Positions 50,448 to 53,202 of a DNA stretch of 64,000 nucleotides are shown piece after piece. Position 1 is the first letter of the stretch; each line of letters begins with the position of its first letter. The notes beneath the pieces were generated by a model. It did no database searches and was not told the DNA's origin. It worked only from the letters and a program-made list of their open reading frames with translations. The stretch is taken from assembly GCA_021819435.1 (NCBI GenBank), contig JAKARB010000010.1, forward strand, positions 62,001 through 126,000, in the 5' to 3' direction. Source of the DNA: Pseudomonadota bacterium (lineage in GTDB: Bacteria; Pseudomonadota; Gammaproteobacteria; Burkholderiales; Burkholderiaceae_C). A program made the position numbers and the translations under genes.

Positions 50448-51479
50448 ATGCGCACCCGCCTCACCGAGCTGCTGGGCATCGCCCACCCCATCGTCCTGCC
50501 CGGCATGACCTACATCGCCGTGCCTTCGCTCGTCGCGGCCGTCTCGAACGCGGGCGGGCTCGGCATCCTCGCTTCTGGCGCGCTCACGCCCGAATGTTGC
50601 CGCGAAGCCATCCGCGAGGTGCGACGCCTCACCGACAAACCCTTCGGCGTGGGCTGCAGCCTGGGCCTGCCTGGTGCGGCCGAATGCGCGCGCATCGCCA
50701 TCGAAGAACGCGTGCCGATGGTCAACGTGTCCATGGGCAAAGGCGAATGGGTGATCGAAGGCGTGCGTGCTTACGGCGGCAAGGTGATCGCCACCATCTC
50801 GAGCGAAGCGCATGCGCGATCCGCCCTGTCAGCCGGCGTCGATGGCCTGATCGTGACGGGGCATGAGGCTGCGGCCCATGGTGGCGCGGTGACGTCGATG
50901 GTGCTGATCCCTGCGGTGCGCGACATGACGGACAAACCCCTGATCGCCGCCGGCGGTTTTGCCGATGGGCGCGGGCTGGTGGCGGCGCTGGCACTGGGCG
51001 CGGACGCCGTGGCCATGGGCACGCGCTTCGCAAGTTCGGCCGAGAGCCCGGTGCACGCCGACACCAAGCGCCTCATTGTTTCGAAAGAGGCGGAAGAGAC
51101 CATCTACTCGCCCAACTTCGACACCTGGCCTTGCCGCGTGATGAAGACGCCGGGCGGCAGGCGCTACACGGCGCATCGGTTGAGCCCGCCGGTGGCGATC
51201 TCACGCTCGCTCAAGGCCGCGCGCGAGCTGAACACGCCTTTGCATCACCTGGCTCGCGAGGCCATGCAGCAAGGGGTGGTCGGGGCGGTGAAGGTGGCGT
51301 ACTTTGGCGCGGCGACGCTGGCGATGCGCAAGGCCATCCACGAGGGCAACCACGACGATGGGGTGCAGTTGATCGGGCAGTCGCAGGGCTTGGTCCACGA
51401 TGTCGTGCCGGTGGCGGAGATCGTGGCGAGGGTGATGCGTGAGGCGGCTGAGGTGCGGGGGCGGTTGGCTGGGCTTTGA
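50448..51479 (+). CDS. NAD(P)H-dependent flavin oxidoreductase / nitronate monooxygenase
   Basis: PIVLPGMTYIAVPSLVAAVSNAGGLGILASG; IVTGHEAAAHGG; PLIAAGGFADGRGLVAALALGADAVAMGTRF. Confidence 0.9.
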   Translation: MRTRLTELLGIAHPIVLPGMTYIAVPSLVAAVSNAGGLGILASGALTPECCREAIREVRRLTDKPFGVGCSLGLPGAAECARIAIEERVPMVNVSMGKGEWVIEGVRAYGGKVIATISSEAHARSALSAGVDGLIVTGHEAAAHGGAVTSMVLIPAVRDMTDKPLIAAGGFADGRGLVAALALGADAVAMGTRFASSAESPVHADTKRLIVSKEAEETIYSPNFDTWPCRVMKTPGGRRYTAHRLSPPVAISRSLKAARELNTPLHHLAREAMQQGVVGAVKVAYFGAATLAMRKAIHEGNHDDGVQLIGQSQGLVHDVVPVAEIVARVMREAAEVRGRLAGL

Positions 51480-51614
51480 TTGGCTGATGGGCTCGGGCTT
51501 TGGGTGAGGGCGTGCTTGCTTGCATGCCTGTTTTGGGCGTGGAAGTTTTCTGGCGCTTTGTCGTGGCAGCGCGGGGCGGTGCTGCGCCGGCATCGGCTCG
51601 GGCGCCACGCGGGT

Positions 51615-51739
51615 GGTCACGCCTTTGGCGTGACTTCCCTGCGGTGCTCCCAGCGAGGTGGGGCCCTCCAACTCACTCCGCGCCCTGTGGGCGCTGCGTT
51701 CAGACAATCCGGGCCAGTCAGATGACGAAGCATGCTTCG
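51615..51739 (+). repeat. hairpin-rich intergenic element, copy A
   Basis: gtcacgcc-ttt-ggcgtgac; ccctgcggtgctc; aactcactcc-gcgccc-tgt-gggcgc-tgcg-ttcagacaatcc; cgaagcatgcttcg palindrome. Confidence 0.75.
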
Positions 51740-52003
51740 CATCCACACCTCGCCGCTCCGCTCCCCGGCACCCGCGAGGCGCCCGAGCCGATGCCGGCTT
51801 CGCCCCTTATGCCCCGCTTTCCTCATGCGAGGAAGGTGGCGTCAGGCTCGTTGGTGGTGCTAATTCGCAAGCCTTCGAAAGATCGCTGGCTTGTTCAACG
51901 ATCAGAAACTCTCGTCATGTCACAGCCCGGGAGATGCGATGCAATGCGGCCCGGAATTGGATCCAGCATGTGAGTGACGAATACGCCCGCGCAAGAGAGC
52001 CAA

Positions 52004-52209
52004 CGTGGCATGCCACGAGCGAGGCGGAAAAGGGCGGAGGCGGTGTGTGGGCGGGCGCCTGGGTGGTGCCGAGGAGCGCAAGCTCGATCAGGTTGCCCCT
52101 TGCCGCAGGCAAGGGGATGGCGAGGACTGTTTGAGCGGCCGCAGGCCGCGAGTTCCGCAGCCACCTGAGCGAGCTGAGCACCGCAGGGCAGTCCTGCCGC
52201 AGGCAGGAC
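52004..52209 (-). repeat. hairpin-rich intergenic element, copy B (inverted relative to copy A)
   Basis: Reverse complement carries gtcctgcc-tgc-ggcaggac; ccctgcggtgctc; aactc-gcggcc-tgc-ggccgc-tcaaacagtcc; ccccttgcc-tgc-ggcaagggg; cgtggcatgccacg. Confidence 0.75.
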
Positions 52210-52338
52210 CACCACTCTCGAAGCCCGCCCGCACACCGCCGCAGCCCCGCCTCGCGCTGCCACGGCAAAGCGCTCGGCCCATGCATGACAGCAGCCTCAC
52301 GATCAATGAAAACGCCTCAGCACAACAAGCCCAAAAGC

Positions 52339-52375
52339 AAGAAGCCCGGCCGGTGACCGGCGCGGGCTTCTTTTC
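52339..52375. terminator. rho-independent terminator for the Bax-inhibitor-1 gene, possibly bidirectional
   Basis: aagaagcccg-gccggtgaccggc-gcgggcttctttt long inverted repeat between convergent genes. Confidence 0.75.
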
Positions 52376-52398
52376 AAGCAAAGGAGCGTGAGAGCGGC

Positions 52399-53097
52399 TT
52401 ATTCGTCGCTGCCACCACCCATGCCGAACAGGCTCAGCAAAGCGCTGAAGAGGTTGTAGATCGACAGATACAAGCTGGTCGTCGCCAGGATGTAATTGGT
52501 CTCGCCCCCGTTGACGATGCGGCTCGTCTCGAACAGGATCATCCCGCTCATCAGCAGCACCACCAGCGCGGACACCGCCAAGCTCAAGGCCGGGACCTCG
52601 AAGAACACCGCCCCCAGGCCCAAGGCAAAAGCCACCAGACAGCCGATCATCAAGAAGCTGCCCATGAAGCTGAAGTCACGCTTGGTGGTCAAGGCGATGG
52701 CCGACAGCCCCAGGAAGGCCACGGCCGTCGTGCCCAGCGCCTGCGTGACCACCGCGGCGCCATGAGGCAGGTTCAGCACGGCATTGAGCAGCGGCCCCAT
52801 GGTGAAGCCCAGGAAGCCCGTGAAGGCAAAAACGGCCAGCAGGCCTTGCGCCTTGTGCGCGGTCTTGTGCACCCAAAAGCTCAGGCCGAAGAAGCCCGCC
52901 AAGGTGACAAGCAATCCGAGAGAGGGCACGTTCAGGGTCATGGCCAAACCCGCCATGCCGGCGCTGAAAGCCAGGGTCAGGCCCAAGAGGGCATAGGTGT
53001 TGCGAAGCACGCGACGGCTGCTGTCCGACACAGAGGTCGAAACAGCGGTGCCGGCCGAAAGGCTCAGCGTGCGGGTCGGGTGCGATGAATCGGACAT
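52399..53097 (-). CDS. Bax inhibitor-1/YccA family membrane protein
   Basis: Seven TM segments; LRNTYALLGLTLAFSAGMAGLAM; NLFSALLSLFGMGGGSDE C-terminus. Confidence 0.92.
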   Translation of the reverse strand: MSDSSHPTRTLSLSAGTAVSTSVSDSSRRVLRNTYALLGLTLAFSAGMAGLAMTLNVPSLGLLVTLAGFFGLSFWVHKTAHKAQGLLAVFAFTGFLGFTMGPLLNAVLNLPHGAAVVTQALGTTAVAFLGLSAIALTTKRDFSFMGSFLMIGCLVAFALGLGAVFFEVPALSLAVSALVVLLMSGMILFETSRIVNGGETNYILATTSLYLSIYNLFSALLSLFGMGGGSDE

Positions 53098-53202
53098 GGT
53101 GATTTCCTCGTGGGAAGAGATGCGAACACAAGTCACATCCTGAGGCACTCAGATCATCGTGTAAATTCGAAATATTGATCGTCAGGTTTCGATAAAACCG
53201 AT

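Follow-up and report, generated by a model that had tools for sequence, protein, structure and literature searches.

The 919-bp gap between two convergent genes in the window (the whole stretch of DNA analysed, 64,000 nucleotides) holds two inverted hairpin units, which with the spacer between them form a composite element of ~730 bp. Its structure and the dispersal of its units as a pair are well supported, and describe a large branched inverted-doublet repeat, in style a relative of REP/REPIN that had not been described before. The best explanation, held with slightly better than even confidence, is a protein-mobilised, non-autonomous interspersed element that folds most likely as single-stranded DNA. 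The unit of dispersal would be the inverted pair of multi-branched units together with the spacer; at each end of the composite the strand bearing the outermost 3' end would fold into a branched structure held together by stems and GNA triloops. The element's conserved unpaired motifs would be recognised by a protein, assumed to be encoded elsewhere, that copies the element or moves it to intergenic sites, many of them between convergent genes; capture of cargo is possible, some pairs enclosing unrelated low-GC genes. If true, this adds a new size class to the REPIN-like elements, present in beta- and gamma-proteobacteria at tens of units per genome, enough to affect assembly, annotation and insertion-sequence targeting.

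Architecture and covariation of the units

The gap is bordered on the left by a gene of the nitronate monooxygenase family (50448..51479, + strand; PF03060, 1.3e-54) and on the right by one of the Bax inhibitor-1 family (52399..53148, - strand; PF01027, 5.2e-45). The composite occupies 51553..52273 and comprises two inverted units of ~280 bp, unit A (51553..51830) and unit B (52000..52280), flanking a spacer (51831..51999); its arms are inverted, and it recurs on contigs C24, C10 and C15 of the source genome. Model R1 scores 121.7 bits at 51605-51769 in unit A and 90.9 bits at 52068-52220 in unit B. A repeat finder places a terminal inverted repeat at 51553-51603 and 52223-52273 (80% over 51 nt), of the sort by which MITEs and DNA transposons are recognised, and the ends GCGCTTT..GGCAGCGCG are conserved at other loci. 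A preliminary description of this DNA had reported two copies with a shared module order in opposite orientation, and sequence, inverted-repeat and pattern searches agree; stems P1, the enclosing P3 and P5, the terminal inverted repeat and the recurrence of the composite at several loci had escaped it. It had placed unit A on the + strand and unit B on the - strand (here the described strand of each, the other being the complement).

The fold of each unit, established by comparison among copies, is multi-branched, with an outer stem P1, a hairpin P2 and a stem P3 bearing P3b/P4 and P5. On the described strand of unit A, the 5' arm of P1 (51586..51615, 30 nt) is 97% complementary to the 3' arm (51769..51798), and is followed by P2 (51616..51634; GTCACGCC-TTT-GGCGTGAC), the 5' arm of P3 (51653..51661, pairing with 51745-51753), P4 (51675..51699, between AACTC and TCAGACA) and P5 (51730..51744; GCATGC-TTC-GCATCC, with GCACGC/GCGTGC and GCGCGC/GCGCGC in source-genome copies). 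The corresponding hairpins of unit B are P2 (52191..52209, with a GCA loop on the folding strand), P4 (52135..52149, with a C(GCA)G loop on the + strand) and P5 (52096..52116; CCCCTTGCC-GCA-GGCAAGGGG on the + strand). In Polaromonas, Acidovorax and relatives (e.g. L092, L094, L103) there is an extra conserved hairpin, ACTTTCTTTTGCTTCGCCAAAAGAAAGT, outside P2 and followed by CACCAAAGAAAAGGCGACCC.

Among source-genome copies P2, P3b, P4 and P5 each show compensated variation. An alignment of 54 units yields 30 pairs, 24 of them with changes on both sides, and two-sided changes are found in all nine P3 pairs of the family and in all five P4 pairs. Two-sided cells number 362, against 111 with shuffled partners and 62-85 in slid-pairing controls, and the covariation score is 0.557 against 0.153; neither observed value was reached in any of 500 shuffles. 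The joint change of both stem arms noted earlier is therefore real and a small part of a far larger signal. Selection on structure rather than on a protein, as had been proposed, is strongly supported by these comparisons of sequence, and the ORFs tested across 51553-52273 have no Pfam match. Conservation of the three scan-pattern motifs is partly built in by the search pattern, and model-found units lacking that pattern still keep AACTC (64/68) and TCARACA (54/68). Unpaired motifs conserved in this way imply that a protein partner is widespread and can now be searched for.

Copies, pairing and dispersal

The window has two occurrences of the pattern CCCTGCGGTGCTC-N-AACTC, with none expected from shuffles, and the genome six, with none for the reversed control. 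In the source genome (27 contigs), BLAST with units A and B detects copies, some full and some partial, at a dozen loci; full copies are 88-94% identical for the A type and 93-97% for the B type. Scanning public genomes for CTGCGGTGCTC-N-AACTC-N-TCARACA gave at least 118 stretches, mostly Burkholderiales by title among the matches listed, and model R1 collected 196 units at 125 loci. Whole genomes were also sampled from the order and from the class, and with few candidates scored per genome R1 matches were present in at least 44 of 199 and at least 36 of 274, respectively, the latter mostly from other orders. The family thus spans Burkholderiales and other Gammaproteobacteria in the GTDB sense, i.e. 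beta- and gamma-proteobacteria. Fuller scoring gave 13 units in the source genome, 51 in Polaromonas JS666, 45 in the genome of L128, and 34 and 22 in two others. A nucleotide search of plasmid and phage collections returned no copy. The preliminary description had made its reading depend on further copies and on covariation; copies exist in the genome and in relatives, and the covariation is significant. Its remark on comparable sequences in Burkholderiales holds as regards the repeats themselves, which are found across that order.

Units less than 1.5 kb apart face inward in 62 of 65 cases and outward in none, and in two whole genomes the inward-facing neighbours are 16/17 and 19/19. Within the source genome an A-type unit is paired in inverted orientation with a B-type or related unit at six loci. 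In four composites (this window, C24, C10 and C15) the spacer is conserved, 77-85% alike, and is replaced at other loci, while the outer flanks are unrelated, aligning no better than the background of forced alignments; it follows that the whole ~730-bp composite has been copied rather than a single unit. The flanks of four composites of the source genome adjoin without the element in the sister genome G470. In two genomes of the same genus the convergent nitronate monooxygenase and Bax-inhibitor genes have their stops 7 bp apart, against 919 bp here. Shared spacers with unrelated flanks, together with the four empty sites, support well, on genomic comparison, that the pair of units disperses as one element. 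Precise loss in G470 is formally possible. The composites gave no target-site duplication, the empty-site relatives being too diverged for exact junctions to be read, and no transposase was found for them. Shortened copies, with the A and B halves fused at P2 (C3/C26) or the unit interior lost (C2), are as expected of deletion-prone palindromes.

Over all loci, rough ORF calls place the units between convergent genes in 33 cases and divergent genes in 8, the rest being co-oriented, and about half of the unit pairs lie outside convergent gene gaps. The earlier claim that each copy follows the orientation of the gene preceding it is true of the present locus; over all loci co-oriented flanks are common.

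At one chromosomal site, between the same two genes in two genomes, inward-facing units enclose different cargo (L064, 267-2660; L157, 780-3269). In the source genome (C14/C21, L064) the cargo is three low-GC ORFs, none matching Pfam or PADLOC, and in the other it encodes a DUF1963 protein. At L147, L153 and L159 a single low-GC ORF is enclosed in each case, none with a Pfam match, and at L192 the unit pair encloses ordinary cytochrome genes. A transposase as cargo was rejected on these search results. The cargo may have been captured by the element or may have been inserted between two units.

One insertion sequence (IS), with ends GGGCCTGTCAGGAATTTAGTGTTCAGGG and GGGAGTGTCAGATTTTTTGTGTTCGGGG and a body absent from the assembly, interrupts units at contig ends of the source genome. 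It lies inside units four times with exact 8-bp target duplications (CACCACCC, GACTCGAT, CCTTTGGG and CTGCGCCG), at C3/C26, C25/C10, C14/C21 and C25/C24 (L066, L071, L069, L058, L065, L064, L068, L062); of its further copies one is in a unit whose partner is unresolved (C2) and one outside units (C5/C19). From its ends and duplication length it looks like an IS256 family member. Its 27 visible residues match nothing in HMM searches, and the assembly has no PF00872 match, probably for want of the IS body. The IS seems to prefer these repeats as a target, and other IS likewise target REPs. At two source-genome loci, the spacer of L059 (C4) and L064 (2340-2440) share a stretch GGACACGATCCGAGT(T/A)ATTTCAGACAAAC(A/G)CCGAG with many CTCGGCG repeats, which adjoins the second unit at both.

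Folding strand and folded molecule

A C.A mismatch on one strand is a G.T or G.U wobble on the other. Across the nine P3 pairs of the 196 units the described strand has 71 C.A/A.C cells and no G.U, cells which read as G.T/G.U on the complement and so point to the complement as the folding strand; symmetric scoring of P3 favours it by 47 to 6, and P3b does likewise, with 57 C.T against 0 G.A. The bias of P2 and P5 is opposite, toward the described strand (G.U 85 against C.A 28, and 17 against 6), the P2 count being perhaps inflated by recurring loop-side motifs; P1 is neutral. The complement is the more stable strand in 181 of 195 units with DNA parameters (p=1e-30), a set that may itself reward GNA triloops, and in 153 of 194 untied units with RNA parameters (p=3e-16). 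Three-base loops close 167 of the 305 hairpins on the complement, and 105 of these triloops are C(GNA)G, against a single mirror case on the described strand; flanking DNA has no C(GNA)G excess, and the strand bias persists when only units lacking the scan pattern are counted and when each locus contributes a single unit. Several tests thus favour the complement, and the strand originally assigned is probably not the one that folds; unit A would fold on the - strand and unit B on the +, an assignment new here. In the composite this makes the folding strand at each end the one with the outermost 3' end. The wobble-asymmetry and triloop tests offer a general, sequence-only way of telling which strand of a palindromic repeat folds, and whether it does so as DNA or as RNA.

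The evidence that bears on the choice between DNA and RNA is the loop types and the energy parameters. In DNA, GNA triloops are known to give minihairpins of extraordinary stability (Hirao 1994 and Yoshizawa 1997, as cited in PMC11101458), for which reason single-stranded DNA is favoured; it is moderately supported as clearly the likelier of the two molecules. The main alternative is a structured RNA, in which the transcribed complement would be a non-coding RNA or a 3'-end processing or termination element; its transcript would run outward from the spacer or arise from read-through of the opposite gene, and the repeats would spread by usefulness to the host or by retro-copying. Wobble pairs specific to one strand and G.A mismatches are what RNA typically shows, the complement is also preferred under RNA parameters, convergent flanks are in excess, and transcripts from a betaproteobacterial repeat locus were seen by Hot et al. 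(PMC3110155). However, GNRA tetraloops are hardly found among the unit hairpins, where GNA triloops stand instead, the strict inward pairing would be without obvious reason, and it is the non-folding strand that continues the adjacent flanking gene. The region also has no Rfam match, either at the gathering threshold or at E<=1. Taken together, the RNA reading is possible, though its chances fall well short of even.

Other readings and known systems

REPINs and BIMEs are inverted REP doublets associated with RAYTs (PMC3116915, PMC3733652, PMC6006769). The present element resembles them in that an inverted doublet disperses, lies between genes and pairs two subtypes (here A/B heterodimers), with single-strand hairpins expected (PMC3116915, PMC3733652) and compensatory changes. 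That it is a REP/REPIN proper, dispersed by a RAYT (Y1 HUH transposase), is nevertheless improbable. REPs are hairpins of 20-65 nt with a GTAG/GTGG or CGTC tag, whereas the units here are several times longer and branched, with several helices and no conserved tag. At the hairpin foot GTAG is present in none of 195 units on either strand and GTGG in just 27, although 11 of these are among the 14 source-genome units; CGTC at the foot of an 8-9 bp stem occurs in 2 of 195, unlike CGTC-tagged REPs. The RAYT link suggested in the preliminary description is also not supported, since a profile search of the source genome for the Y1 transposase (PF01797) found none, controls having matched, and the association across the order is weak, 29 of 44 genomes with units having one (15 lacking it) against 86 of 155 without units. 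Among the Y1 genes listed in the order survey none lies near a listed unit. RAYT/Y1 was therefore rejected as mobiliser.

The element might instead be an immobile bidirectional terminator or insulator kept by the host between convergent genes, as its strong hairpins and the convergent bias would suggest. This is very improbable, given the many pairs outside such gaps, the absence of four composites from G470, and the spacer shared at four source-genome loci, which speaks for copying. That the region is merely structured-looking GC-rich intergenic DNA or a misread gene, as long ORFs spanning it on both strands might propose, has practically no chance of being right, being refuted by the covariation controls and opposed by the missing Pfam matches and by model matches across species.

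The TIR families of TIRYT tyrosine transposases likewise are longer inverted repeats dispersed as dimers, and differ in being defined by a flanking Y1 gene (PMC3733652), of which none was found here. MITEs too are short and non-autonomous with terminal inverted repeats; here neither a parent transposon nor, between relatives too diverged for exact junctions, a target duplication was found.

As in the protein-mobilised element favoured here, the 3'-terminal strand forms branched hairpins with the same geometry at both ends in Streptomyces telomere 3' overhangs, whose GCA loops are closed by sheared G.A pairs, and in parvovirus 3' termini (PMC4513846). Those are the ends of linear replicons, in Streptomyces with a terminal protein, whereas there is no sign of a linear form here, and the likeness would be one of working only. 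A broader proposal, that the family is class-wide mobile DNA with ends like telomere or ITR hairpins, the 3'-terminal strand at each folding as branched single-stranded DNA read by a conserved protein, and with pairs able to capture and exchange cargo genes, is speculative and rather unlikely.

A literature search by sequence string found nothing relevant, and the pair ATAGCT(N)22CAAAAG of Polaromonas (PMC5217627) is not the same motif. The Beta-proteobacterial repeat element (BRE) of Hot et al. 2011 (PMC3110155) is a GC-rich repeat of ~90 bp, often in tandem and mostly intergenic, with the B. pertussis repeat at 3605317-3605401 as reference; it is also found in Delftia, Acidovorax, Rhodoferax and Bordetella, and was described without structure or pairing. 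Compared by description only, BRE and the present family occupy the same taxa, Polaromonas sp. JS666 having 29 BRE copies against its 51 R1 units, and BRE may be the core, or an earlier partial sighting, of this family.
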